Shown piece after piece: positions 3,054-56,041 of a stretch of DNA of 64,000 bases. The notes under the pieces are model-generated. The model did not search any database. It was not told the origin of the DNA and saw nothing but the letters and a program-made list of their open reading frames with translations. Origin of the DNA: Pirellulales bacterium (lineage in GTDB: Bacteria > Planctomycetota > Planctomycetia > Pirellulales > JADZDJ01); NCBI GenBank assembly GCA_020851115.1, contig JADZDJ010000224.1, positions 1 through 64,000 of the forward strand, read 5' to 3'. The translations under genes and the position numbers were made by a program. How positions within the stretch are numbered: the first letter of the stretch is position 1; each line of letters opens with the position of its first letter.

Positions 3054-6000
3054 ATGTCAACAATACTGCCGTCGCTCTTCGCTTTTGTCGCCTTCGGCGT
3101 ATCCGCAATACTCGTTCATGCCGCGGAACCCAAACCGGGGAATATCGCACCCATGGCGAAAGTTACGGCGTCCAGTTCGCGGTCGGAATTTCCGCCGCCG
3201 GGCGTCAACGACAACCGCATGGATACGCAGTGGAGCGCCACGCGGGAAAAGGAAACCGGCGAGTGGCTGCAATTCGATTGGGAAGCGCCGCAAGATATTT
3301 GTGCCGTGGCGCTTTATGCCACCGGCCCCTGGATTCAATCGCTCGACGTCCAGATAAAACGGGAAGGGGCATGGATTTCCGTGGGCCGCAGCGGCTCGAA
3401 GGAAGAGCGGATGCCGGAATATGTGGTAGTTACCTGCAAACCGCAGCACACGAATTCCCTGCGGTTCGTTTTCGACGGTCCCGGCGCGGCCTTTCATGAA
3501 GTCGAAATCTATCACGATCCCGCCCTCGCGGCGCGAATCGCGGCCGACTATGTGAAGACTCAGGTCGCCGTGGCGGGCGATCTCCGTGGGCATCTGTTGG
3601 GCACGGTTTCGCGAGTTGACGGAAGCATCGCGGTGCGCAATGCGGACGTAACGGTAACGGGCAAAACGCCGGCCGGTCCCTGGAAAGAAACCGCAAAGAC
3701 CGGTCCCAACGGCGATTTTGAAGTCCCGCTTCCATTCGCGGCGACCGGACCTATCAAAGTGGCGGTTGCGAAGAACGATGCCAAGTCGGAGCAAGAGTTC
3801 GACAGCGGGGATGTTTCCACTCGGCTTACTCCGCGAACGCGGGACCACCGAAAAAATCGAGTTTCCCTCGGGGGGACCTGGGATTTCGCCGTCGATCCGC
3901 CGCAAGATTTCCCCGCAAACCGGCAACAAATTGCCTGGAGTCCCATCAAGGTTCCCGCACATTGGGCAATGGAAGGCTTTACCGCCGAGTCGGGCAAGGC
4001 GGTTTATCGCAAATCCTTCCCCGCGCCCGCCGAATGGGAAGGCAAGCGAATCAAGTTCCGCGCCGACGCCGTCTATAGCCGCGCGCAAGTCTGGGTCAAC
4101 GGCAAGCGGATCGGCGGCCACGAAGGCGGATTCACCCCGTTCGAGTTCGACATCACCGAGAGCGTGAAACCCGGCGCGAAAAATGAAGTGCTCGTGTTGG
4201 TTGACGCCCGCTCGATGGCCAGCGAGATCGACCATGCCAGCAACTATGCCTATTTCGAATTGGCGGGCATTTGGCAGCCGGTCGAGGTCTTCGCGGTGGA
4301 GCCGGTGAATATCTCTCATTTCGGCGTGAATACGGATTTCGACTCGTCCTATCGCGATGCCGCGCTCGCGGTGGAAACCGACGTCGTGAACGAAAGCGCG
4401 AACGCACGCGCGGCCAACGTCAACATGCGCTTGTTCGATCCCCAAGGCAAAGAAGTGCCGGTCGAAGGGCTTGCGGCCCCCATTTCCCTCGGTCCTTGGG
4501 AACGCAAGACGGTCAGCCTGAAAACCACGGTCAAAGCGCCTCAACCCTGGAATGCCGAGCAGCCCCGGCTGTATAAATTGGTCGTTGAATTATCCGGAAA
4601 CGCCGAACCTTCCGCAATCGCCGTCGAGCAGCTTTTCGGCTTCCGCGAAATCGAAGTCCAGGGCCGCGTACTCGCGATCAACGGCAAGCCGGTGAAGTAC
4701 CGCGGCGTCAACCGGCTCAGCGCGCATCCGCTGATGGGCCGCGCGATCGCGCCCGAAATCATCCGCCAAGACACCGAACTGATCAAAGGCGCGAATTTCA
4801 ACCTGATCCGCAACCACATCGGGCCGGCGAATCCGCTCGTGATGGACGACGCCGACGAGTTCGGGCTTTACGTCGAGAGCGAAGGCCCCGCCTGCTGGGC
4901 GGAACGCACCAACGACCTGCGCTACGTTACCCTCTATCAAGGCATCTTCTGCGAATTCGTCGAGCGCGACCGCAACCATCCCAGCGTCGTCGATTGGTCG
5001 ATCTGCAACGAAAGCAATTATCCCGGACGGATGTTCGTCGCGACCTTCCACAAAGTGAAGTCGCTCGATCCGAGCCGAACTTGCAGCGCCTCGTACGACA
5101 ACCACACGCTCGACATGAACGTCTATCACCACCCGATTTCGCTGAAGCGGATCGAAGAGACCAAAAACGAGCGGAAACCGGTGTTTTTCGACGAAGTGCT
5201 AGGCGTCTTCCACGGCTGGCAGGATCTCGCGCTCTTCGAGGATATCGACCCCGGCATGCGCGATTATTGGATCACGGGCATGCCGGAAATCCAGCGCGCG
5301 ATCAATGCCAACGAGAACCAGGTCGGCGCGAATCAATGGGCCTGGGTGGACGATACGTTCCTCGTCCCCGGCAAGGGCATTGGCCACTGGCATCGCTCGC
5401 ATCCGCCGATTTACTATGCCACGCCGACCTACAAAATGCCGCAGCGGGGCATCGTCGGCGATGTCATCTGGGGCACGGTCGATGGCTGGCGTCGCCCGCG
5501 GCCAGAGCATTGGCTCTCCAAAAAACTCTACTCGCCCGTGCAAATCCCCGAGAAACCGCTGGCCATTCCGGTCCCCGGCGAACCGATCGAAATCCCGCTG
5601 GGGAGCTATAACCAGTTTGCCGATTTGGATCAATACGTCTGCCGCTGGGAACTGGCGGGGGAACGGGGCGAAGCGCGCGGCCATGCACCGCCGCTGGGTA
5701 AAGGTTTGCTGAAAATCGCCGCAAAACGCGCGCCGCGGCCCGACGATATACTGACACTTAAATTCTTCGACGAGCGCGATAAAATGGTCGATGCCTACCG
5801 GCTTTCGTTCGCGCCGCGCGCAATACCCGCCTTCCCCAATTCCGGCAAGCCCGCGCGAATTGCGGAACAGACCGGGACCCTCGATCTGGAAGGCACCGTG
5901 GCCGTCCGCATGTTGGGTCCGAAAATGGAATTGTCGTACGAACGCGCAAGCGGCGAACTCTACCGCGCGCTGGCCAACCGCGAAACGATTTTGACCCTCG

Positions 6001-35298: not shown

Positions 35299-36552
35299 AT
35301 GGCATGGCTCCAACAATATCCTTCCGGCCATTATCACATTAGTTTTCGCCTCGGCGGGCGAAAGTTCAAACGGTCCCTGGACACCAAAAGCGAATCGGAT
35401 GCGCAGGGCATGGCCGGGCGCATCGAGGACAACATCAAACTTGTGGAACGTGGAATCCTCTCCATCCCTCCTGGGGCGGATATTCCTAGATTCCTTCTTT
35501 CGGACGGGAAAATCGTGGGGCCGGTCGAAGCCCCTGCCGTCGTAAGCCTAGGTACGCTTCTCGACCAATATGAAAAGGCCATTTCCGGCGGAGTCGTGGA
35601 AGACAGCACCTTGGCGACCATCCGCATTCATGCAAAACACCTCAAACGGATTCTCGGTGAAAAAACGGATGTCCGAACCATCAGCCGAGATCGGCTGCAA
35701 GAGTACATCAACGCCCGCCGAGCACAACGGAGTAATCGTGGCACGGCCATCAGCCCAATCACCATCCGCAAGGAACTGACTACGCTCAGCGGCGTCTGGT
35801 CCTGGGCGATTCCAGGAGGGGTAATCGGGCCATTTCCGAATAAGGGTCTCAAGTACCCGAAGGGAGTGGATAAGTCACCTTTCCAGACGTGGGAAGAAAT
35901 TGAAAAGCAAATCGAGCGGGGCAACCTCTCGGAAAAGGATCGGGAGTCGCTTTGGAACTGCCTCTTCCTTAGCATTGCCGAGACCACCGAATTACTGAAG
36001 CACGTTAAAGCAAAGGCACAGCAACCTTTTCTCTACCCGATGGTCGTCTTGGCGGCACATACCGGGGCGCGACGCTCCGAATTGATTCGCTCGCGGCTCG
36101 TGGATTTTGACGAGGAATCCGTGATTATCCGGGAGCGGAAACGTTCGAAGAAGAAGCATACGATCCGTCGCGTGCCGTTTACGCCGTTTCTCAAGAAGGT
36201 TATTCAGGAATGGCTTCAAGAGCATCCGGGTGGCCCTTACACGTTTTGCATGAAGAAGGTTGCCCATTCCAAGAAGCATCGTTCGGGGCCAGAACCGATC
36301 ACCGTCGATGAAGCCCAAGACCATTTGAAACGAGCTTTGGCGCACTCAAAATGGGAGAAGCTGCGCGGATGGCACGTAATGCGGCACAGTTTCATCAGCA
36401 ATTGTGCCCTTATGGGAATCGATCAACGGATTATCGATTCGTTCGTTGGCCATACGACTGAAGAAATGAGAAAACGCTACACGCACCTGTTTCCGTCAGC
36501 AAAGAAAGCGGCTATTGAGGCGGTTTTCGGGGCAGAAGCCCCTCCGACTTGA
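35299..36552 (+). CDS. Tyrosine-type site-specific integrase
   Basis: The 417-residue recombinase integrates or excises mobile DNA. It has an N-terminal arm-binding region (MAWLQQYPSGHYHISFR), a core-binding SAM-like domain (about 75-175) and a catalytic domain. The catalytic set is complete: Arg in AHTGARRSEL, HVMRH (H-x2-R), the His of VGHTTEEM and the Tyr of RYTHLF. It is intact and of normal length. It lies at the right edge of the metal island and is the best candidate for the enzyme that moved it. It overlaps the convergent helix-turn-helix gene by 41 bp. Confidence 0.93.
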   Translation: MAWLQQYPSGHYHISFRLGGRKFKRSLDTKSESDAQGMAGRIEDNIKLVERGILSIPPGADIPRFLLSDGKIVGPVEAPAVVSLGTLLDQYEKAISGGVVEDSTLATIRIHAKHLKRILGEKTDVRTISRDRLQEYINARRAQRSNRGTAISPITIRKELTTLSGVWSWAIPGGVIGPFPNKGLKYPKGVDKSPFQTWEEIEKQIERGNLSEKDRESLWNCLFLSIAETTELLKHVKAKAQQPFLYPMVVLAAHTGARRSELIRSRLVDFDEESVIIRERKRSKKKHTIRRVPFTPFLKKVIQEWLQEHPGGPYTFCMKKVAHSKKHRSGPEPITVDEAQDHLKRALAHSKWEKLRGWHVMRHSFISNCALMGIDQRIIDSFVGHTTEEMRKRYTHLFPSAKKAAIEAVFGAEAPPT

Positions 36553-40531: not shown

Positions 40532-40867
40532 TTAGCGATTTCGTTCGTGATAATCGGCCAAAGCCTTCTCGATTAGATGACTGAGGTGCATTCGTGCTTC
40601 CCAGGACCAGTCACGGTAGGTAGAGATTAAGTCCGCGGCGATTCGCACTGTGAACTTGTTCCTGGAAGTGCCTCTCGCGTTGGCACCCAGCGGTCGTCCG
40701 CGTCTCGCGAGAAGGCGAGCCCCGACAGGGCAGGCTTTGCTGGCTGACCGCCTTTGGGAGCTGCCGGGGAAAAAGCGGGCATCCTCGAATACGGTGTGCT
40801 CCGGTTCGGGGGACGACAGAATCCTGTCTAGCACTCCGGAAATACCGTGTACCTGAGCCTTGTTCAT
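40532..40867 (-). CDS. Small partner of ParA (ribbon-helix-helix type)
   Basis: The 111-residue protein has its ATG overlapping the parA stop by four bases (ATGA), so the two genes are translationally coupled. The N-terminal half is basic and flexible. The C-terminal 50 residues (NKFTVRIAADLISTYRDW and EARMHLSHLIEKALADY) match a ribbon-helix-helix fold. By position it is the centromere-binding (ParB-role) protein of the partition system. It is not a classical ParB. Confidence 0.75.
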   Translation of the reverse strand: MNKAQVHGISGVLDRILSSPEPEHTVFEDARFFPGSSQRRSASKACPVGARLLARRGRPLGANARGTSRNKFTVRIAADLISTYRDWSWEARMHLSHLIEKALADYHERNR

Positions 40868-41598
40868 AGCAGCACCGGCTGCAATTGCTCGACGACCTTT
40901 GCATAGTCCATAAGTGCTTTGGACGTAGTGAGCCGTTGTATTGTCCCGGCCGTCGTGGCGTACAACAGCCTGGAGTCCGCTCGGATGGTCCCGAGCAAAG
41001 GATAGAGACGGCCGACTTCAGTACGGACTTGTTCGGTAATCTTCCGCCGACGGTGGGAATTGGTTATTACGGCTCCGAGAATGTGCAAGTCGGGATTCAC
41101 TCGCTCCCTAATTGCCTCAATAGTAATATGTAGGTGGGCCAAGGCGTGTAACTCGAATCCGCCCGGTTGAACAACCGCGATCATGCCGCCGGCGGTGCTT
41201 AAGCAGTTTACCGAGAGCACTCCTAGCGATGGCGGGCAATCGAGAAGAACAACTGTGTTGGTTGGCAGAGCGGTCTTTTCCAAGCTGGTTCTGAGAAAGA
41301 ACTCGCGGCCAGTCTCGCTCAATAGCTCGGTTTCGGCCCGTCCAAGTTCGGTCGTGCTGGGCGTCAAGGTCAGGGACGGCAAAATGGTCCGAATCGGCAA
41401 GCCAGCCCTGTGCATGAGGGCGTGGTAGAAACTGTCCGTATCGTCTTGCACGCCGAACGAACGGGTAAGGCTTCCTTGGGGGTCACAATCAATCAAGTGT
41501 GTTGGTGTCCCACTGCGGGCCAGAAGGACGGCCAATGCCGCCGTGGTTGTGGTCTTGGCCGTGCCGCCCTTTTGGTTGGCGATAGCGATAATCCTCAT
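40864..41598 (-). CDS. parA: ParA-type partition ATPase
   Basis: The 244-residue Walker-type ATPase segregates low-copy replicons. It has a deviant Walker A (KGGTAKTT, residues 10-17), A' (IDCDPQG) and Walker B (VVLLDCPPSLG). Its length fits the short chromosomal or type Ib ParA class without an N-terminal helix-turn-helix. It is divergent from the replication initiator gene, with the origin between them, and coupled to the small partner gene downstream. Confidence 0.93.
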   Translation of the reverse strand: MRIIAIANQKGGTAKTTTTAALAVLLARSGTPTHLIDCDPQGSLTRSFGVQDDTDSFYHALMHRAGLPIRTILPSLTLTPSTTELGRAETELLSETGREFFLRTSLEKTALPTNTVVLLDCPPSLGVLSVNCLSTAGGMIAVVQPGGFELHALAHLHITIEAIRERVNPDLHILGAVITNSHRRRKITEQVRTEVGRLYPLLGTIRADSRLLYATTAGTIQRLTTSKALMDYAKVVEQLQPVLL

Positions 41599-41965: not shown

Positions 41966-43486
41966 ATGAAGGAAGGGAAGAGTTCGATGGAAACCCACGG
42001 CGAAAGAGCTCATCTCAAGAGAATGGGTCGCGATGAAATGAATTTGGCGGAGTTCCCTTTGGCCTTGCTGGCCGACCGGGTTCCGCCAGGCTGCAAGACC
42101 CTGGTTTTCGAGGATCAGATCCGGGACAAGGGCCACGGGCAGGATGTCGTGCGGCGGTTGACGATTTCGGCTTGTGACAAATTCGGCCTTCCTACGGCGT
42201 TGGACGATGAAGTGATTTTGGGACTGGTGCAATTGAGCAAAGCCGACAATTTCACCAATCGGGAAGTGCCGTTCAGCCGCTACAAGCTTATTCACCTATT
42301 GAACTGGCGTGACGAAGGGAAAAGCTACTCGCGATTGGAGGAATCGCTTAAACGCTGGGTCGGAGTGACACTTTATTACGACAACGCTTGGTGGGACAAG
42401 GCCCGCAAGCGTTGGGTGAATGCACATTTTCACCTGCTCGACAACCTCACGCTATACCAGCGTCTCAAAAGCGGCGAACGGTCAACACGAGACAATAACG
42501 GCGGGCCGCTATCGTCGTTCACCTGGAACGAAATCATCTTTCGCAGCTTTCGTGCCGGGAATCTCAGGAAGGTCGATCTGGAATTCTACAAGACGCTCAA
42601 ATCGGCAGTCGCCAAGAGACTCTATCGTTTTCTCGACAAGCACTTCTATTTCGGCGGAAGGCAGCGTTATAACCTTGCTCGATTTGCTCGGGAGCATGTC
42701 GGTTTGCTAAGCCAAAGCTATGATGCCGCCCAGCTAAAACGCCGGCTAACGCCGGGTATCAGGGAATTAGAGGAAGCCGGCTACTTGGAAGCACTCCCTG
42801 CAAAAGAACGGTTCGTCTGCGTACGACGTGGTGAATGGGAGGTCGTGTTCATCCGTGCGGTGAAGCCGGCTCAGAAAGAGGTTGAATCACCCCAGCCGGC
42901 TGGCCTGGAAGCTCAATTGGTGGACCGTGGCGTGACCGCTTCGGTAGCGAATCGGCTGGTGCGTGACTTTCCCGCCGAAACGATCAATGCAAAGCTAAAC
43001 GTATTCGACCGTTTGGCCGCTCGCCGGGATGCTCGAATCTCCAAGAATCCAGCGGGTTATCTGGTAGAGTCGATTCGTAAAGACTACACGCCGCCACCAG
43101 AGATTCCGACAACGGTTTCTCTTGCCGCCGTGAAAAGCAACCCACCCGAACAATCGAAGGCACGCAAGCGCATTGAACGCCCCGAGGACAAGAAGTTCTA
43201 CGTGGAACAACAACAGATTGAGGAGCATCTTGCCGGGCTATCCGCCGAAAGACTGGCCGAATTGGAGGTCGAGGCACTAAAGTCCTCGCCATCGTTTATT
43301 GTCGAGCGATTCCGGGATGCTGTGGCTTCTGGAAGCGAAGCACTCACCCGCCAGTACCGCCGGTGTCTGCTGGAGAGGCATTTGCGAACGATCTTCAACT
43401 TAATGGCAGAACCAGCGTGTACATCCAGCAGGAAAGCGATTGGCGATACGCCGGAGCGATCCGCGGCGACCTGTCAGCAAGGATAG
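41966..43486 (+). CDS. Plasmid replication initiator (RPA family)
   Basis: The 506-residue protein belongs to the replication initiator protein A family. Characteristic segments are DEVILGLVQLS, RYKLIHLLNW, YSRLEESLKRW, FRAGNLRKVDLEFY and AVAKRLYRFLDK (about 75-230), a winged-helix DNA-binding region. A Pro/Lys linker and a C-terminal helical part follow. It would bind the iterons directly upstream and open the origin. An ATG at 41987 preceded by GGAAGGGAAGAG is an equally good or better start than 41966. The frame is intact, so the replicon may still be functional. Confidence 0.88.
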   Translation: MKEGKSSMETHGERAHLKRMGRDEMNLAEFPLALLADRVPPGCKTLVFEDQIRDKGHGQDVVRRLTISACDKFGLPTALDDEVILGLVQLSKADNFTNREVPFSRYKLIHLLNWRDEGKSYSRLEESLKRWVGVTLYYDNAWWDKARKRWVNAHFHLLDNLTLYQRLKSGERSTRDNNGGPLSSFTWNEIIFRSFRAGNLRKVDLEFYKTLKSAVAKRLYRFLDKHFYFGGRQRYNLARFAREHVGLLSQSYDAAQLKRRLTPGIRELEEAGYLEALPAKERFVCVRRGEWEVVFIRAVKPAQKEVESPQPAGLEAQLVDRGVTASVANRLVRDFPAETINAKLNVFDRLAARRDARISKNPAGYLVESIRKDYTPPPEIPTTVSLAAVKSNPPEQSKARKRIERPEDKKFYVEQQQIEEHLAGLSAERLAELEVEALKSSPSFIVERFRDAVASGSEALTRQYRRCLLERHLRTIFNLMAEPACTSSRKAIGDTPERSAATCQQG

Positions 43487-43517: not shown

Positions 43518-44390
43518 TTACGCGGCGATGGCGAATGTGACTTCCGGCTGCTTCGCCTGGCGGCTGTTTTTGGCTTTCGACGGAGCCTTGTCGGAAGAAG
43601 TCCTGATGACGAATCCGGTTGTGTCGTTCTTTGCTTGCCCTTTGGCTTTCAGTCCTACGATCGTGCCAGCTTGGTCGAGGAATCTGGCGTCGTGCTTGTC
43701 GCCGTCGGTCACGGGTGTTCCCCAGTGCGTGTGTGGCAGGTCCGGCCAGAACACCACGGCGACCGTGCCCCCTTGGGCGAGGAAGTTGTATGCTTCGTCG
43801 TGGTTGCCAGGCTGTGCCGAGAAGGTAAGGTGATAATTCTTCGGCCAGCTCGGGTCGTTGAGGAACTGCACCATCCTGGAGGGAACCTTCGTGTAATCGA
43901 AGAAGTGGATGTTCGGGAATTCAGCGAATAGTTCGGGGTGAAGTCTTTTCCACGGCAGGTCACTGGAGCCGTTGAGCCTTACGGCGGGGATGAGTCCAAG
44001 TCTGCGGGCTTCTTCTTCCAACTGGCTCAGTTCAACGGTCAGCATTTGAAGGAAGAGTTGGTTCTTCTCCACGTAGAGTGCGGTTCGGCGGTCGCGAGCG
44101 AGTGCGTGGGTTGGCATTTGCATCCGTCCGCTGGAGTGGCCTAAGCACGCGGCCAGGCACCCCTGCGTCGCGTTGGGACAGAAGACTCCGGGGGTGAAGT
44201 AGAGAACTCTGGCCAGCACCCCGACGCTGCGGCTCTTCTCCGTCTTCAGTGAGGTTCCAAGTAAGAACTTCGGAAGGCCGTGCTTCTTCAGGATTTCCGC
44301 CGGCGTCATCTGGCCGAAAATGGTCTTCGGATCTGCGGAGCGAAGGATTCTGAGTTTCGGTTCTGAGTCTGTGGTTTTGGTCTTTTCCAT
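43518..44390 (-). CDS. GP88-family protein
   Basis: The 290-residue protein has a perfect GGAGG just upstream of the ATG at 44390. It resembles the phage and plasmid gene-product-88 family: FTPGVFCPNATQGCLAACLG and SSGRM near the N-terminus with three Cys, RLNGSSDLPW, IHFFDYTK and a Cys-poor C-terminus. The Cys cluster suggests a metal or Fe-S site, and the biochemical role is unknown. The C-terminal 30 residues are Lys/Ser/Ala-rich. It converges on the initiator gene with a 31-bp gap. Its ribosome site lies in a perfect hairpin (44397-44439). Confidence 0.8.
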   Translation of the reverse strand: MEKTKTTDSEPKLRILRSADPKTIFGQMTPAEILKKHGLPKFLLGTSLKTEKSRSVGVLARVLYFTPGVFCPNATQGCLAACLGHSSGRMQMPTHALARDRRTALYVEKNQLFLQMLTVELSQLEEEARRLGLIPAVRLNGSSDLPWKRLHPELFAEFPNIHFFDYTKVPSRMVQFLNDPSWPKNYHLTFSAQPGNHDEAYNFLAQGGTVAVVFWPDLPHTHWGTPVTDGDKHDARFLDQAGTIVGLKAKGQAKNDTTGFVIRTSSDKAPSKAKNSRQAKQPEVTFAIAA

Positions 44391-44396
44391 AGTGTT

Positions 44397-44439
44397 CCTC
44401 CTTTCGGTTCTCGCCCACACGCGTGGAACCGAAAGGAGG
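44397..44439 (-). promoter_or_regulatory. Hairpin that pairs with the GP88 gene ribosome-binding site
   Basis: Read on the - strand, CCTCCTTTCGGTTC is followed by a 15-nt loop and its perfect complement GAACCGAAAGGAGG, then AACACT and the ATG. All 14 pairs match, and the 3' arm is the Shine-Dalgarno. In the folded mRNA the ribosome site would be hidden. This is the design of a translational switch or a protein-bound operator. Confidence 0.75.
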
Positions 44440-44454
44440 GACACCAGAGCCCCT

Positions 44455-44547
44455 TTTCATCGCGGGCAACAAATAGGCGGCTGAAGGCAAGGGCAAGTGA
44501 CAGCTACGCTGGCACGCCCTTGCCTGCCGCTGCCGCCCGCGATGAAA
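44455..44547. other. Nested palindrome in the GP88 leader
   Basis: TTTCATCGCGGGC (44455-44467) is perfectly inverted at 44535-44547. Inside, GGCAAGGGC (44486-44494) is inverted at 44516-44524, and GCGGC/GCCGC and CAGC/GCTG pairs continue the stem. It could be a second leader structure of the GP88 mRNA, or a DNA site such as a transfer or replication signal. Confidence 0.6.
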
Positions 44548-44739: not shown

Positions 44740-45914
44740 TAACAGCAGGACCTTTGTCCTGCGGTCGTCGGTGGTGCTAACGTACCGTTGAGACCTCTCG
44801 ATTGGGCAGTACACCCGGTAAACCTGCAACCAACAGGCTAAGGGGATGGTCTAACCAGCCATCATGTGCTGTGCCAGTAGAGCCGGATGCCATGCGAGTG
44901 GCTTGTCCGTGCTCGACGGAGGCTCGCTGAAGTAAACTCACTGGATTTGTATTCCAGTGTCCAATCTCAGCGTTCTATCCGATAGCATTTGGCTCCGGTG
45001 CCGGCACTTGCGGCCGGCACGTGGAATGGGGGCGATGCGGACATTCCCCGGTGCGTGTACATCGGGGTCGTCATGTTGCAAAGTCGGTGAGCGGTCGCAA
45101 GGCTGCAAATCCGCCTGCGGGCTTCGAGCCTGCCTGAAAGGGCAGGTTCGTTGAACGCGTGCCGGCGTGGGGAGCCTTCGGCTGGTGACAGCCGGAGCCG
45201 GACCTAGATCAGGTTCGGGGACTGCGGGCAAATCCCGCGGCCGTGAAGAGCTCAACCATGAAAGGCCCGCAAGGGCTTGCCGGTAAGAATCTTGGGAGAC
45301 GCTGCCGAAAACGCTGTTTGGGAGCCACGCGGTGGCCCTAGGAGCGGCGAAAAGCGGTGATCGGAGGGTAAGGGGTAGCTTCTGTGTTCTGACCCCTGAA
45401 ATAGCCAATTCTGGCCTTCTGGCCAACTGGCTGAAACTATGGCGGGCGGGATCCCGCACATACGGCCACTTGCCTGAGGGATAACACCCTCTAGCCACGT
45501 GACCCAAGATTCGGAGTGCATGACTAACGCAGGAAGGAGTTGAGCGGCCGGCTTGGTCGCCGGTGCCCGCCTTGGTCAGGCGGGTGTTTGAAATGCTCAA
45601 CTCTGGGAGTGGGGCCTGAGTAGAAGCTGGCGCGGAGCATGGTTTCAACCATGTACCGACCTGGGCGGTGTACGCGGCAGGCAGTCGCGGCCCGTTGGCG
45701 TGTTACGGGTGGTGCCGGGCACAAGTGCCACAACGAAAGGGCTGACTGGTCAATAGGCCAATCGAGAGGTCGGGCGGCTGGGGTGTTGCCCTGGTTGCCC
45801 ATAATCCGTGGTGGATGCGGTAGCGGCCGAAATCGGCATCTCGGGAGAGGTGTCGCTTGCGGTAGCGGCCGGCGATGTTCGTGACGTGTGCCTTCGGCAT
45901 GCGTCGGTTTTTCT
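44740..45914 (+). ncRNA. Candidate large structured non-coding RNA (about 1.2 kb)
   Basis: The stretch holds no ORF with a plausible start and protein-like composition, yet it is dense in perfect short stems. Examples are 44745-44762 (7 bp), 44939-44959 (7 bp), 44998-45020 (8 bp), 45046-45067 (8 bp), 45129-45146, 45224-45238, 45262-45278 (CCC-GCAA-GGG, a GNRA loop), 45324-45336, 45371-45397, 45403-45432 (two nested stems) and 45476-45491. Two regions fold as three-way junctions. GAGCC/GGCTC (44880-44884, 44921-44925) encloses two hairpins, and GAGTTGAGC/GCTCAACTC (45537-45545, 45595-45603) encloses two hairpins with the same TTGGTC loop. It ends in an intrinsic terminator on this strand. The 5' end is approximate. 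RNase P, tmRNA and group I/II intron landmarks are not seen. Large ornate RNAs of mobile DNA (GOLLD, ROOL) are the nearest concept. Confidence 0.72.
45883..45914 (+). terminator. Intrinsic terminator of the candidate RNA
   Basis: GACGTGTGCC (45883-45892), loop TTC and GGCATGCGTC (45896-45905) give a 10-bp stem with two G-T pairs, followed by GGTTTTTCT. This is a textbook rho-independent terminator for + strand transcription, though no gene precedes it. Confidence 0.85.
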
Positions 45915-45943
45915 GGAGGATTAGAGCGGAACGCCTATGAATT

Positions 45944-45981
45944 GGCGGGGTCGCACTGTGGAATACAGTCGCGACCCCGCC
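45944..45981. repeat. Very stable 38-nt hairpin
   Basis: GGCGGGGTCGC (45944-45954) pairs with GCGACCCCGCC (45971-45981). ACTGT and ACAGT extend the stem to 16 bp with a one-base bulge and the loop GGAAT. There is no T-run. It lies 30 bp after the terminator of the candidate RNA. Confidence 0.65.
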
Positions 45982-46138
45982 AAGCGGCCGCTGGTCGAGG
46001 TTTCCTGCACCGACTTCGGTCGATGCCTGAGCCGTCGCCTGATTTGTAGCCAGGTGCGGTCTCGGTAAAGGGAAAGGTTCTGCTCAAATTGGCGGCGTGG
46101 GGCTGGCCGAGAACAGCCCCAACTTTGACTATCGCATA

Positions 46139-46643: not shown

Positions 46644-47363
46644 ATGGAGTACCGTTGTGCCGCGGGGTCGATTTCCGGTTTTGTTCAGCAGTTGGTAAGC
46701 TGCTACCTACCGCATGGTTACTGGTTCTACGTCTCGGGGGTGATTCCCTACGGTAAGGTTCCGGAAGAAGTCGACGAAAAGCTCATTGCCAAGTATGGCA
46801 TTGGCATGTCGCGAACGTCCCGGGCACGTCGGAAGGCGGTGGGGATTGCCAACGTCCATTACCTCCGATATCAGCGGCGGTTTGTGCTCCTGGCCACGCA
46901 TGGATTCCATCCTTTCTACGATGAGGAAGCCCGGAGCATCCGCGACGTTCGCCGGATTCCGATCCGGTTCGAGGGGTATTCGATTTCGGTGGTTCGGGGC
47001 GGATTCAAGCGAAAGAAAGAGGGGGAGGCCGCCGCAATCCGAGATAATCGCTGGCGAGTGCGTGTCCAGATCGACCGGGAGTGGTACAAGGGACTCAAGG
47101 CGTACTTCATGGATGTTGCCTTACTTCGGGCTCCTGAGGCTCTGGCGGCGGAATTGTACGGCTTGCCATACGAACCGTACGCTCCCGTCCGCCAGCAATT
47201 GCTTAATATAGTACGCTACATCAATCGCCGTAGAGAAGCCGCCAGTCTGGAGCCAATCAGCCCGATGGTTCTGCGGTTTCGCCGTCGTATCGTCCGGCCG
47301 TTTGAACCGTTCGCGGCGGAATCTTCTACGGTCGCCGACATCTTGAAAATGAGCAGCGGCTAA
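46644..47363 (+). CDS. Conserved hypothetical protein of mobile DNA
   Basis: The 239-residue protein starts at the ATG at 46644 (MEYRCAAG). It is basic with many aromatic residues (HGYWFYVSGVIPYGK, RYQRRFVLLATHG) and a C-terminal helix-rich part. RRK/RxR clusters suggest nucleic-acid contact. No catalytic motif is recognised. The weak Shine-Dalgarno leaves the start slightly uncertain. It is divergent from the 46139 gene. Confidence 0.7.
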   Translation: MEYRCAAGSISGFVQQLVSCYLPHGYWFYVSGVIPYGKVPEEVDEKLIAKYGIGMSRTSRARRKAVGIANVHYLRYQRRFVLLATHGFHPFYDEEARSIRDVRRIPIRFEGYSISVVRGGFKRKKEGEAAAIRDNRWRVRVQIDREWYKGLKAYFMDVALLRAPEALAAELYGLPYEPYAPVRQQLLNIVRYINRRREAASLEPISPMVLRFRRRIVRPFEPFAAESSTVADILKMSSG

Positions 47364-51131: not shown

Positions 51132-54122
51132 CTAAACCTCATCGGCCGAAACCACCACGGCAAAGGGCACGCCCAAGGTTTCAAAGTGTTTTTGGCCGCA
51201 GCGGACTTTGTCGGCTTCGCTGGTGCGGAGCTTCAGGAAGTCCTTCGTGCTCTTGGTCTCGCGGACCAGGTAGAGCGTTTGGTTGTCATGCTTCATGACG
51301 GCCCAGTCGGGGTTGTATTTGCCGACTGGAGTGTCGATCTCGAACCAGCCGGGCAGCTTGACGAAGAGCTTGATGTCCTCGCGTGTATCCAGCTTCCGGG
51401 CGAATTCCCGCTCAACTTCCGATTCGTACACCACGTATTCGTACACGGAATGGTTGACCTGCAACGCCGTCAGATAGTTGATGAGTTCTTCATTCTTGAA
51501 GAGCATCATTTCCCATTCGGTCTCCGGGCCGTCGCCGGCCAACCGTTCGTACTTGATGCCGTCCACCAGCAGCCGATGCAATTCGTACTTGAGGATGTGG
51601 GCCACGGCGTCCATGAATCGCTGGGGATCTCGAAAGAATTCCGTCAGCCGGCCGGACTCCTTTAGAATCCGCACTAGCGTCGAGCGGGTTAGCTCAGTTT
51701 CGTTTTGCAGGTAGGCCAGCACGTCGGGCACGGGATGACGGTCGTTGGATACCTGCACCTGTGACACGCTGACGGCCGTCGTTGTAACTCCGCCACGTTG
51801 CACGTTGAGTTGTCCCGTACTGATAATAATCTTTGGTGCATCGATTCGCACCATGCCTTTGATAGCAGCCACACCACGCCGAACTAGTTCATTGGTCTCA
51901 AATTCCACGCGGTAAGTGGTCCTGGGTTTAATGCGGTCCCATAGGGCCGTGAACTCGGGGCTGAGCGTGACTTCCTTCTTCAGCCGATTCGGGCCTTCGT
52001 CTTTGTCCTTACGGATGTGCCGCTCGATCTGGTACAACGCCAACAGATCCACCACGGCCGGCACAAGCTCCTTCTGGGCCTCGGGTAATTCGATCTTAAA
52101 GTCTTTTCGCTTGGGGTCAAAGGCCGGTTGGATGCGTCCCTCGGTGTCGAGCATCTTCTGCTCAACCAAGGCCGTCTTAATGACTTCGGCTATCTCGCGG
52201 CCAATGGGCTTTTCTTCGCCGTCAACAACGTGTATGAGCTTGGCGAAAGCGGTGATTGGCACCTTGCCGAACGTGACACCGCAATCCTCTTCGTATTCGG
52301 TCTGCAATGCTCGGGCGAAGTCTTCGTAGCTTTCGTTGGCCATGACGAAGAGCTTGTTGACCGACTCGTCAAATACCCGCTGCCCGAACTGGTTTACCGG
52401 CAAACGCAAGCCGCGGCCGATTTCCTGACGTTTTTTCACGGCACTTCGTGTTTCGTTGAGCGTGCAAATCTGGAAGACGTTCGGGTTGTCCCAGCCTTCC
52501 CGAAGAGCAGAATGGCTGAAGATGAACCGCAGCGGCTCCTCCTCGGAAAGAAGCCGCTCCTTCTCCTTCATGATTAGATTGTACACTTCGTCGTCGGCCT
52601 GGGTGTCGCCCCGCGTGTCCTTGAGCACACCCTTCTTGTCCGCAGCGAAATAGCCGTTGTGCAGCCGGTCCATCGGTAACTTCAGCCATTCTAGCGGTGT
52701 ATACTTACTGTCCTTGGCAAGCTCGGCCAAGGTCTCTTCAAAGGTCAGGGCAAACTTGCCTTTCACCGGCTGCCCCGACTCGTCGTAGTCGCGATAATTG
52801 GCCACGCGGTCGATGAAAAACAGACTCAAGACCTTTACATCCCGCCCGCGAAGCTGCAACTCCTTCTCCAAGTGCCTCTTGACTGTATCGTGTATCTGTG
52901 ATCGCCACACCTCCTCCCGCATCCCGCCGCTTTCCTCGCCAAGCCGCATTACCCGTCCGTTGTTGAACCGCACGAACTCGTTACCGGGTTCGGCGTTTAT
53001 TTCGGCCACAACGAAGCCGTCCTGGTAGCAAGCCCGTTCGTTTGACACACTGAAGAGGTCGGTGCCGTTCTTGACCGTGACCGATTTCTCCTTGGGGCCG
53101 TCCGGTTTCTGCTCATGAATACGTATTTTGGCCTTGATGCCCTTCTTGTAGTCGATCTGCTCGACGCGTACTAAGGCGTCGTTGGCCCCGCCATACGCTT
53201 TAGTTTCGGCGACGACGATCTGCTTGACTAAGCGAAGCTCAAACGCCCGCACTGGGTCCAGCCGATAAACTAGGTTGTATGGATTGCGGTGCGTGGCGGA
53301 GTAGCGAAGCGTACATAGAGGATTGAGTGCCCGAATTGCGTCCTGGGCTTTTTCAGTGGCGTCCACGCTCTGTGGTTCGTCTATGATCACGACGGGGCGT
53401 GTGGCCTGAACAAATTCCATAGGCGAGTGTCCGCCCGGTAGCCTGTCTGTTTCTTTGTAAAAAACATTGCTCTTCTTCCGTTCATCCTCGGTCTCTGCCC
53501 CGGTGAAGTTCTTTCGGAAGGCGTCGATATTGATGACAAGGATTTGTACCGTGTTGCTAACGGCGAATTGCCGTAAGCGATTGACCTTTCTGGCGTCGTA
53601 AACAAAGTGCTCAAAGGGCAGGTTGTTGTACAACGCCCGGAAATGTTCCGCCGTGATTTCGATATTCTTAAGCACACCCTCGCGGATGGCGACACTGGGC
53701 ACAACGATTATGAACTTCTGGAGGCCGTAGCGACGGGACAACTCAAAGATCGTCCGCAGATAGACGTAGGTTTTTCCTGTGCCCGTCTCCATCTCGACGG
53801 AAAAGTGCGGACAGGTTCGGACTGCGTTTGCGGCCGTATCGAACAATTCCCATGCCTCCAAGGGAGCGGCGGGATCGCCGGTCTCGATGTCGTTGCGTAC
53901 CTGCAATGCCCGGGTGTTGGCCAGAAGTGTTTCGGGTGCTAGTAACAGGTTGTTGCCCACACCAAGTTCGGTCCTGGCCTGGCCGGCAAACAATCCGCCC
54001 CAGTCGCCCACCTGGATAACCGAATACTCTGGGGCTCCTTGGGGCTGGCCTTCAAAAAGGTCGGTTACCGCAGCCACGGCGTCAAGCTGGTACTGTTGAT
54101 TAGCGTCGAATTGCAGTTTCAT
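51132..54122 (-). CDS. res: Type III restriction endonuclease subunit (Res)
   Basis: The 996-residue ATP-dependent helicase-nuclease cuts unmodified DNA together with Mod. The start at 54122 has AAGGGAATC upstream. An ATG at 54137 overlapping the mod stop is an alternative. It has Walker A (METGTGKTY, near 112), a DEAD-type box (VIIDEPQS) and C-terminal helicase motifs (ALREGWDNP, QEIGRGLRL). The C-terminal PD-(D/E)xK nuclease has PDWAV and RETKST (near 955-985). All key residues are present. Coupling to mod is by overlap or near-overlap. Confidence 0.93.
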   Translation of the reverse strand: MKLQFDANQQYQLDAVAAVTDLFEGQPQGAPEYSVIQVGDWGGLFAGQARTELGVGNNLLLAPETLLANTRALQVRNDIETGDPAAPLEAWELFDTAANAVRTCPHFSVEMETGTGKTYVYLRTIFELSRRYGLQKFIIVVPSVAIREGVLKNIEITAEHFRALYNNLPFEHFVYDARKVNRLRQFAVSNTVQILVINIDAFRKNFTGAETEDERKKSNVFYKETDRLPGGHSPMEFVQATRPVVIIDEPQSVDATEKAQDAIRALNPLCTLRYSATHRNPYNLVYRLDPVRAFELRLVKQIVVAETKAYGGANDALVRVEQIDYKKGIKAKIRIHEQKPDGPKEKSVTVKNGTDLFSVSNERACYQDGFVVAEINAEPGNEFVRFNNGRVMRLGEESGGMREEVWRSQIHDTVKRHLEKELQLRGRDVKVLSLFFIDRVANYRDYDESGQPVKGKFALTFEETLAELAKDSKYTPLEWLKLPMDRLHNGYFAADKKGVLKDTRGDTQADDEVYNLIMKEKERLLSEEEPLRFIFSHSALREGWDNPNVFQICTLNETRSAVKKRQEIGRGLRLPVNQFGQRVFDESVNKLFVMANESYEDFARALQTEYEEDCGVTFGKVPITAFAKLIHVVDGEEKPIGREIAEVIKTALVEQKMLDTEGRIQPAFDPKRKDFKIELPEAQKELVPAVVDLLALYQIERHIRKDKDEGPNRLKKEVTLSPEFTALWDRIKPRTTYRVEFETNELVRRGVAAIKGMVRIDAPKIIISTGQLNVQRGGVTTTAVSVSQVQVSNDRHPVPDVLAYLQNETELTRSTLVRILKESGRLTEFFRDPQRFMDAVAHILKYELHRLLVDGIKYERLAGDGPETEWEMMLFKNEELINYLTALQVNHSVYEYVVYESEVEREFARKLDTREDIKLFVKLPGWFEIDTPVGKYNPDWAVMKHDNQTLYLVRETKSTKDFLKLRTSEADKVRCGQKHFETLGVPFAVVVSADEV

Positions 54123-54133
54123 GGTGATTCCCT

Positions 54134-56041
54134 TCATACCGTCTTAAAGCTGGTGACGCCTTTGGTCTTGAATATCTGCACAGCGTTGGCCTTGAGTTGG
54201 TCGTTGCCGGCAAAGCCTCCGTCCAGGCAGACAATCCGCTCGGGTTTCTTCTCGGCAATGGCCCGGATCAGGTCGAGGGTTAGTTCCGGCTCCAGGCAGA
54301 TCACGAGAGCCCCGCCGGCCACGCTGTATGCCGACTTGCCGGCTAAAGCAACCTTTTCGACCGGCGTGGTCAAGGGGAATCCGCTCTTGAGCAGGAGCTC
54401 GTAGAGAATGTCGTGCGATGTCCGGCCATCTCGGATGTGGTCTACATGAAGTTCAAGTTGCCGTTCAAGGGTGGCGGGATCATGCTTGATCCCTGCGTCC
54501 CAGGTCGTTAAGTTGGATTGGTCGAGCTTGAAGACGCGGAAGCCCCGGTCGGGTTTTAACCCGTTATCCATGTCGAACTTACCTGCGTCCGCGTCGTTCA
54601 GCCTTTTGTTCACTCGCCGAACGCGTTCCTTGCAGATATCTGCAATCGTTGGGCAGTCGGTCCGTTCGGTCGGCTCCGGCAGTTGCACCAGAATGAATCT
54701 GCGGCTACCTCCATCTGCCTCATTCGCCTGAAATACGGCGTGGGCAGTCGTTCCACTACCAGCGAAGAAATCAATGACCAGGGCATTCTTGTCGCCGTCG
54801 ATTTGCAGGAATCGCTCAATGAGTGCTACTGGCTTCGGGAACTGAAGAACTACCTCATCATCAAACAACGCCCGTAGGTCAGCCGTCCCGTGCTGCGTAT
54901 AGATTCCGTCGATTATCGAGAACGGTTTGGCTCCTCGCTTTTGCCCATCTTTCCCGATTAGGTATTGCTTGTAGGAAATACTCCATCCGTTGTCCGTCTT
55001 GGTAAAGACGAGACCATTTTCAGCAATCGTCGCTTCAACGCGGTCCTTACTCCACCACCATTGCCTCTTGGGTAGCACCTGTGTGCCATCGGGTGCAGTG
55101 ATGGGAAACATAAGGTTCTCACGGCGATCCATGCTCTTGGTAGCCTCAAGCGGCTTGATCCTGTACGGCCCGCGTTTCTCAAGATGCTCGTCCTTGCCGT
55201 CGTAGTATTTCTCCTCTGCCTCGGGGTCAGGTGGAAGCCAAAACTCGTTCAATGCATCAATGTTCTTTGCGTAAAGGATACAGAATTCGTGCTGCCTCAC
55301 GGCAAATCGCTCTTTGGCACCCCCGCCATAGCTCTTCTTCCATACAAATCCCTCAATGAAGTTTTCCTCACCAAACACTTCCGCACAGAGCTTACGGAGG
55401 TTGTCAAGCTCGTGGTCGTCAATACTGATGAATACGAGTCCATCGTCGCGTAGCAGATTTCTGGCTAAATACAAACGCGGATACATCATGTTAAGCCACT
55501 TAGAGTGAAACCGTCCGTCGGCTTCGGTGTTCGTGCCGAACTTCTTGCCCTCTGCATCGGCTTGGCCTGTGTACTCCAGGTAGGTTTCTAGGCTTTCAGT
55601 GTAGTTGTCTGGATATATGAAATCGTTTCCCGTATTGTAAGGCGGGTCGATGTAAATCATCTTGATTTTGCCGAGGTATGCCTTCTGCAAGAGCTTCAGT
55701 ACTTCGAGATTGTCCCCCTCGATGATTAGGTTGTCAGTCGTGTCAAAATTGACGCTTTCTTCCGGGCAGGGGCGGAGTGTACCGAGGCTGGGGGCCTGGA
55801 TCGTCTTGAAGCACTCTCTCTTGCCCGGCCAGTTCATCCCGTAGCGTTCCTTACCCACGTCCACGGCCTCGCCCAAGGCTAGCTTCAATCGCTCGATGTC
55901 AATCTTACCGCCCTCCGTGCGAATCTCGGGAAAAAGGCGTGTAAGGTCGGCAATTTTGTCGCCAGTAATATCATGCGACCTCAGGTCGAGGGCGTCGGTC
56001 TCGGGACTCGAAGAAGGATGTGCTGTCGTTCCATTAGACAT
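54134..56041 (-). CDS. mod: Type III DNA adenine methyltransferase (Mod)
   Basis: The 635-residue N6-adenine methyltransferase gives sequence specificity and protects host DNA. The catalytic motif IV DPPYNTGND (near 132) precedes the SAM-binding motif I FFAGSGTT (near 420), the beta-class order typical of type III Mod. The middle part holds the target-recognition domain. It lies between the DUF5655-like gene and res, all on the - strand. Confidence 0.94.
   Translation of the reverse strand: MSNGTTAHPSSSPETDALDLRSHDITGDKIADLTRLFPEIRTEGGKIDIERLKLALGEAVDVGKERYGMNWPGKRECFKTIQAPSLGTLRPCPEESVNFDTTDNLIIEGDNLEVLKLLQKAYLGKIKMIYIDPPYNTGNDFIYPDNYTESLETYLEYTGQADAEGKKFGTNTEADGRFHSKWLNMMYPRLYLARNLLRDDGLVFISIDDHELDNLRKLCAEVFGEENFIEGFVWKKSYGGGAKERFAVRQHEFCILYAKNIDALNEFWLPPDPEAEEKYYDGKDEHLEKRGPYRIKPLEATKSMDRRENLMFPITAPDGTQVLPKRQWWWSKDRVEATIAENGLVFTKTDNGWSISYKQYLIGKDGQKRGAKPFSIIDGIYTQHGTADLRALFDDEVVLQFPKPVALIERFLQIDGDKNALVIDFFAGSGTTAHAVFQANEADGGSRRFILVQLPEPTERTDCPTIADICKERVRRVNKRLNDADAGKFDMDNGLKPDRGFRVFKLDQSNLTTWDAGIKHDPATLERQLELHVDHIRDGRTSHDILYELLLKSGFPLTTPVEKVALAGKSAYSVAGGALVICLEPELTLDLIRAIAEKKPERIVCLDGGFAGNDQLKANAVQIFKTKGVTSFKTV

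Follow-up and report, generated by a model that had tools for sequence, protein, structure and literature searches.

A planctomycete mobile element encodes a predicted self-splicing RNA of the circularly permuted group II kind

Overview

A gene-free stretch of about 1.2 kb in the window (the whole 64,000 nt of Pirellulales DNA that was analysed) very likely encodes an RNA that is predicted to splice itself, with its parts in a shuffled order. The region at 44740-45914 is almost certainly a circularly permuted (CP) group II ribozyme, approximately 1.25 kb in length. Ribozymes of this kind are already known. They were first described in 2021, having formerly been called T-large RNA (Roth et al., PMC8637638). 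In their published layout, domains V and VI (D5-D6) come first, the reversed splice sites are internal, and D1-D4 come after. Relatives tested in that study back-splice, which yields a circle and a branched RNA (PMC8637638), and by analogy with them the window RNA can with good confidence be expected to back-splice as well.

Considered as a whole, the locus is best explained, with a high degree of probability, by a CP group II ribozyme, together with a putative helper protein (AcpG) and a hairpin at the 3′ end of the RNA that may capture the guide loop, EBS1. Relative to PMC8637638, the new elements are a possible reverse transcriptase (RT) origin of AcpG, the second partner hairpin of EBS1, and a conserved parA-repA-RNA-acpG cassette. 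CP group II RNA is also widespread in mobile elements of the Planctomycetota; the main text of Roth et al. 2021 (PMC8637638) does not name this phylum.

A structured, gene-free region

An initial annotation, made from the sequence of the window, had proposed a large, ornate non-coding RNA on the plus strand of a plasmid-like element. This description was sound, as was the setting that it gave. Open reading frames at 44740-45914 are mechanical, and no long plus-strand frame runs through the RNA. A coding reading was rejected on these grounds, together with an alignment of homologues in which conservation is structural rather than coding. The stretch is indeed rich in hairpins, and its structure exceeds that of random DNA: positions 44740-45739 fold at -483.5 kcal/mol, whereas shuffled versions average -422.4 (z -6.7) and none of the 20 is as low. 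The GNRA-capped stem singled out at 45262-45278 is likewise real, and contains a covarying pair (45267-45274).

Two of the proposed boundaries needed revision. Conservation of the RNA extends from about 44760 to 45983, so the interval ends some 70 nt early. The supposed terminator at 45883-45914 does contain a genuine hairpin, although conservation continues past it as far as a more stable and functionally more informative hairpin at 45942-45983; the T run that follows is not kept in all homologues, and the hairpin is therefore probably not the 3′ end of the RNA.

Table 1. Features of the RNA and its locus, in window coordinates.
Feature	Position	Strand	Basis
P1/P2-region 5′ stem-loops, unique to the permuted class	44745..44872	+	alignment, RNAalifold; covarying 44811-44867, 44824-44836
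P2 loop pairing with D2 loop	~44853-44859	+	P2-D2 pseudoknot covariation
Domain V (AGC triad, two-base bulge, GNRA tetraloop)	44880..44914	+	R1; RF00029 at the same place in homologues; pairing
Domain VI, ends ATCCGAT	44917..44983	+	invariant columns; covarying 44917-44981, 44925-44972 to 44929-44968
3′ splice site	after 44983	+	domain VI end
Intervening 'exon', 46 nt	44984..45029	+	between 3′ AT and invariant GGGCGA; last 6 nt are IBS1
Intron 5′ end (GGGCGA) and domain I	45030..45533	+	GGGCGA invariant; closing pairs 45036-45531 to 45039-45528 covary
Delta nucleotide and EBS1, D1 terminal loop	45383; 45384-45389	+	pairing with IBS1 and 3′ hairpin
Domain II	45536..45604	+	covarying stem 45536-45604 to 45543-45597
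Domain III	45614..45742	+	covarying pairs 45614-45742, 45674-45688, 45697-45729
Domain IV stem-loop (assigned by position)	45826..45862	+	covarying pairs 45830-45859, 45834-45855, 45840-45849
Hairpin then GGTTTTT (initially annotated as terminator)	45883..45905	+	-15.5 kcal/mol
3′ hairpin presenting GAATACAG at 45961-45968	45942..45983	+	-34.7 kcal/mol, z -8.2
ParA partition ATPase	40864..41598	-	PF13614, E 1e-34; conserved in 21/24 loci
Replication initiator protein A (RPA, PF10134)	41966..43486	+	E 4e-11; conserved in 18/24 loci
acpG homologue, 239 aa, no Pfam family	46644..47363	+	beside RNA in 23/24 loci

Identity of the RNA

The group II character of the RNA is most apparent at its 5′ end, where a D5-like hairpin carries the AGC triad, bulge and tetraloop. 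This hairpin has a fold z-score of -4.3 and scores 108.7 bits with R1, a covariance model of D5-D6 built from the window RNA's own family and thus including the window sequence. D6 follows directly, with covarying helices and an invariant, bulged A44977. This residue is the probable branch point, with 6 nt between it and the 3′ splice site. The domain order is that of the permuted class: D5-D6 at the 5′ end, splice boundaries reversed (AT, 46 nt, GGGCGA), then D1-D4. Splicing is predicted to free the 46-nt exon as a circle of RNA; across 78 homologues, the exon has a median length of 28.5 nt. A 5′ splice site at GTGAG (45087) was considered and dropped, because the pairs that close D1 begin upstream and GGGCGA at 45030 is the invariant boundary.

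Comparison with known families leads to the same class. The Rfam group II model for domains V-VI (RF00029, cut-off 40 bits) does not match the window copy even at E 10. It exceeds the cut-off in four homologues (L140, 49.4 bits; L141, 47.6; L022, 44.8; L017, 42.9), which include the K2D and Leptolyngbya plasmid copies, and gives sub-threshold matches at the same 5′ position in seven more. That these matches always fall at the 5′ end of the RNA is the defining oddity of CP group II ribozymes. Conversely, R1 finds the published CP RNA of the Polaromonas plasmid pPNAP05 (E 4e-7) and the Planococcus plasmid RNA (E 9e-7). It also finds, weakly (E 0.016), the Thermus plasmid copies, on the strand reported by Roth et al. 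and divergent from acpG. A D1 fragment aligns to pPNAP05 (E 2e-5), and the GGGCGA motif of the 5′ splice site occurs at the same place in the pPNAP05 CP RNA and in a Thermus plasmid relative.

The window RNA thus shares with the ribozymes of PMC8637638 the domain order, the reversed internal splice sites and the GGGCGA boundary, as well as the EBS1-IBS1 pairing, the P2-D2 pseudoknot, the plasmid location and the neighbouring acpG. It differs in its length (about 1.25 kb, against about 900 nt in the published examples) and in belonging to a subclass that adds a 3′ hairpin complementary to EBS1, in nearly all cases has acpG immediately downstream in the same orientation, and is part of a par-rep cassette.

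Homologues and covariation

A DNA search of 98 relatives gave matches in 20 genomes, that of the window included. After refinement, these yielded around two dozen near-full-length homologues, mostly 58-69% identical and extending to about 45983; the total now stands at approximately 80. Covariation was assessed in 75 sequences with our own reimplementation of the R-scape idea, rather than R-scape itself, against 20 null alignments in which the observed substitutions were replayed along the tree at random columns. By this test, 91 pairs of columns score above all null values, and 86 of these belong to the RNAalifold structure. Within D5-D6, 98.8% of cells are base-paired, and 21 of 26 pairs show double changes. 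The P2-D2 pseudoknot, which Roth et al. considered the best supported (PMC8637638), covaries at 44854-45557 and at a stacked neighbour. Five covarying pairs lie outside the structure, and three of these join the D1 loop (45384-45386) to the 3′ hairpin (45964-45966).

Two partners for EBS1

EBS1 is complementary to the exon in a single register, the one directly adjoining the 5′ splice site. There, it forms on average 4.71 of 6 pairs with IBS1, compared with 3.99 after shuffling, and none of 500 shuffles reached the observed value. The delta nucleotide is T in 75 of 78 homologues, the first exon base is A or G in 65 of 78, and the second is G in 53.

The same loop has another complement. EBS1 and the two bases that precede it, delta included, pair at all eight positions with the 3′ hairpin in 73 of 77 homologues, a count that falls to a mean of 15.5 (maximum 26) when partners are shuffled. 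The K2D and Calothrix copies keep the full pairing. Counted separately, the variable triplets changed about 32 times in EBS1 and 31 times in the hairpin; counted jointly, they changed only 34 times. This leaves almost no change confined to one of the two: in about 29 steps on the tree, both were altered at once. The hairpin follows the pattern of the ligated junction, GAANNN^AG, and lies a median of 200 nt before acpG. In pPNAP05, a search for it reached 7/8 at best and did not find it, which marks the hairpin as a feature of the subclass. The main text of Roth et al. (PMC8637638) makes no mention of the pairing. From these patterns of complementarity, the hairpin at 45942..45983 appears to be a second partner of EBS1, that is, an unreported target hairpin for the guide loop. 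A regulatory role for this capture is conceivable, if somewhat short of an even bet, and the hairpin may be only a structural staple.

Genetic context and distribution

When open reading frames around 24 RNA homologues were clustered, 23 loci had acpG directly downstream of the RNA in the same orientation. The RNA is part of a conserved parA-repA-RNA-acpG cassette, in which acpG starts about 200 nt past the RNA in most relatives and 660 nt past it in the window. Other genes accompany the cassette here. A phage-like gene of the GP88 family (PF17338) occupies 43518-44444, in the gap from repA to the RNA. Next to it, still upstream of the RNA, is a long imperfect inverted repeat (44455-44547) with a 71% match to its own reverse complement. 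The same element carries type III restriction-modification genes (51132-56041) near a large Strawberry-notch-like helicase (PF13872, PF13871; 60345-63890). With a phage-type integrase at 35299, a TrwC relaxase and TrwB/TraD coupling protein further along the contig, and chromosome-like genes on both outer sides, it is read as a mobilisable element that has integrated, not as a free plasmid. An attachment-site repeat of useful length was not found for it.

A protein-alignment search with AcpG across 84,980 species genomes recovered 142 relatives, from which 80 acpG loci were kept. They are mostly from Planctomycetota, others being labelled Contendobacter, Competibacteraceae, Hydrogenedentes, Opitutaceae and so on. 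An RNA homologue is present in the same locus for 77 of the 80, usually just upstream, although it lies 4.9 kb upstream in two (L105 and L108) and downstream in one (L133). Two of the three loci lacking the RNA are cut by a contig start. At one locus (L095), an acpG homologue has 2.3 kb of upstream sequence and no detectable CP RNA. Starting from the RNA instead, acpG lies within 1.5 kb at 26 of 30 strong loci. Among the carriers are the cultured species Lacipirellula limnantheis and Rhodopirellula europaea. A class survey found strong R1 matches in about 49 of 298 genomes; this count leaves out matches of 35-45 bits, often repeated within a genome, which are most likely ordinary group II introns.

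Searches of plasmids with the window RNA as DNA gave no match, and phages and viral contigs held no match to either the RNA or the AcpG protein. Plasmid records with an AcpG relative include those of planctomycete K2D, Leptolyngbya, Calothrix and a 5.5 kb Planococcus plasmid, all with a gap of 1.3-1.7 kb before acpG. The Planococcus plasmid (pA26H1) has only four annotated genes, a CP RNA of 1.3 kb and an acpG of 0.66 kb, making it a handy minimal test system. The Calothrix plasmid holds two D5-D6 copies of the CP class, at 2620-2733 and 4771-4875, about 2 kb apart.

The CP RNA can itself be a site of insertion. In one locus (L073:3530-5980), a canonical group II intron sits in the D5 stem, starting with GTGCG at about 3553, carrying an RT/maturase/HNH reading frame at 4064-5911 and ending in TTTTTACCCTAC at 5954. 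This is one ribozyme inside the catalytic domain of another. Ends of group II introns (D5 and the 3′ end) occur at the same D5 spot in two further loci (L110 near 3033; L092 near 642).

The AcpG protein

AcpG proteins are found near CP group II RNAs, and have no homology to any protein class according to Roth et al. (PMC8637638). The window protein shows both homology to the Thermus AcpG (TTHC007; hhalign E 6.8e-7 over 173 collinear columns between profiles) and proximity to a CP RNA, and so belongs to this family. In contrast to that published description, a dead RT palm is proposed here. Two AcpG AlphaFold models have a pLDDT of 91.7 and 95.3. In Foldseek searches, the best PDB match of the first was a group II intron RT (8h2h_D, E 2.4e-3), while that of the second was the retron Eco8 RT (E 1.6e-3), with most of its top 50 matches being RTs or RNA-dependent RNA polymerases (RdRp). 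TM-scores of the models against RTs are low (0.25-0.29), and hhalign detects no significant similarity between the profiles of AcpG and of eight group II RTs (prob 0.9%, E 0.059), so the argument for RT descent is one of fold resemblance only. The same non-significant alignment sets YLRxxRFFVL against YVRYADDFLL, and RFxGYSI against RFLGYEV. The catalytic YADD motif is absent from AcpG, with YLRxxRFFVL in its place; since the catalytic aspartates are lacking, an active RT was rejected. AcpG is therefore predicted, from the models, to have a polymerase palm-like fold without catalytic aspartates, and a fold of this kind suggests that it may be a dead, shrunken maturase. RT descent is plausible but unproven, and the chances that AcpG is an RT-derived maturase are about even.

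Alternative explanations

The initial annotation had likened the RNA to GOLLD and ROOL and suggested a new class. A giant, ornate, non-catalytic RNA of that sort would account for the size, the density of structure and the mobile location, and the absence of any Rfam family at its gathering threshold would fit; across the whole window, only a tRNA passes these cut-offs. The RNA does share its large, structured nature with GOLLD, ROOL and OLE, and its mobile location with the first two. However, neither these nor other Rfam families match the region convincingly up to E 10, and it carries instead the group II catalytic core: D5-D6, splice-site motifs, EBS1-IBS1 and P2-D2 pairing are all found. 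The reading is thus very improbable, and the RNA is of a known kind that merely has no Rfam match here. Nor is it a canonical group II intron, with which it shares D5, D6 and the EBS1/IBS1 logic, and whose RT the predicted fold of AcpG resembles. Such introns (RF00029, with an RT/maturase) require the order D1 to D6 with terminal splice sites, whereas here D5-D6 precede D1, there is no internal reading frame and the RNA is not excisable. The non-canonical order and the missing intron-encoded protein might also be those of a scrambled, decayed remnant without function, but the order is identical in about 80 homologues across several phyla, the structure is under purifying selection and the partner gene is conserved, leaving this the most remote of the readings considered.

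Alternatives to the remaining parts of the CP group II reading carry more weight. The pairing of EBS1 with the 3′ hairpin could be a mere folding staple, a kissing loop that holds the 3′ end and has no part in target choice. The likelihood of this comes close to one half: Roth et al. (PMC8637638) see other class-specific long-range pseudoknots, and hardly any homologue lacks the pairing. Against it, the pairing takes exactly EBS1 and the delta nucleotide, and hence competes with the exon, and the hairpin copies the ligated-junction pattern, whose A or G at the first exon base recurs in most homologues. For AcpG, an unrelated RNA-binding protein not derived from an RT is a serious alternative, though not the favoured one. 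It would agree with the lack of a sequence-level match to RTs and with a weak KOW/L24-like match (E 0.008), but not with two high-confidence models that both have RTs as best PDB matches, nor with the RT- and RdRp-dominated top 50 of the second.

Proposed mechanism and significance

By inference from the tested relatives (PMC8637638), the branch-point A in D6 would attack the 5′ splice site, and the freed end of the linker would then attack the 3′ splice site, releasing the 46-nt circle and leaving a T-shaped branched RNA. The remaining steps are proposed here. AcpG, as a catalytically dead and shrunken descendant of an RT/maturase, would aid folding of the RNA. Once the circle has left, the 3′ hairpin, imitating the ligated junction, would capture EBS1. 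With EBS1 captured in this way, back-splicing would run in one direction only, and the reverse reaction of the ribozyme could be directed at the acpG leader, which would couple ribozyme activity to the supply of AcpG on the element. It is also conceivable, but improbable, that the hairpin is a second substrate, and that the branched ribozyme reverse-splices in cis into GAATAC^AG after circle release, so that the acpG message gains the D5-D6 leader and D1-D4 are circularised. If this were true, back-splicing would be the opening round of a rearrangement in two rounds, through which the ribozyme makes or controls the mRNA of its own dead-RT cofactor.

The purpose of CP group II ribozymes has been a puzzle, and their protein partner has been described as unlike any known protein. 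The subclass described here offers a possible origin for AcpG and, for the guide loop, a second target to which it is locked in evolution. Its genetic surroundings of partition, replication, RNA and acpG are constant, and occur in genomes including those of cultured planctomycetes.
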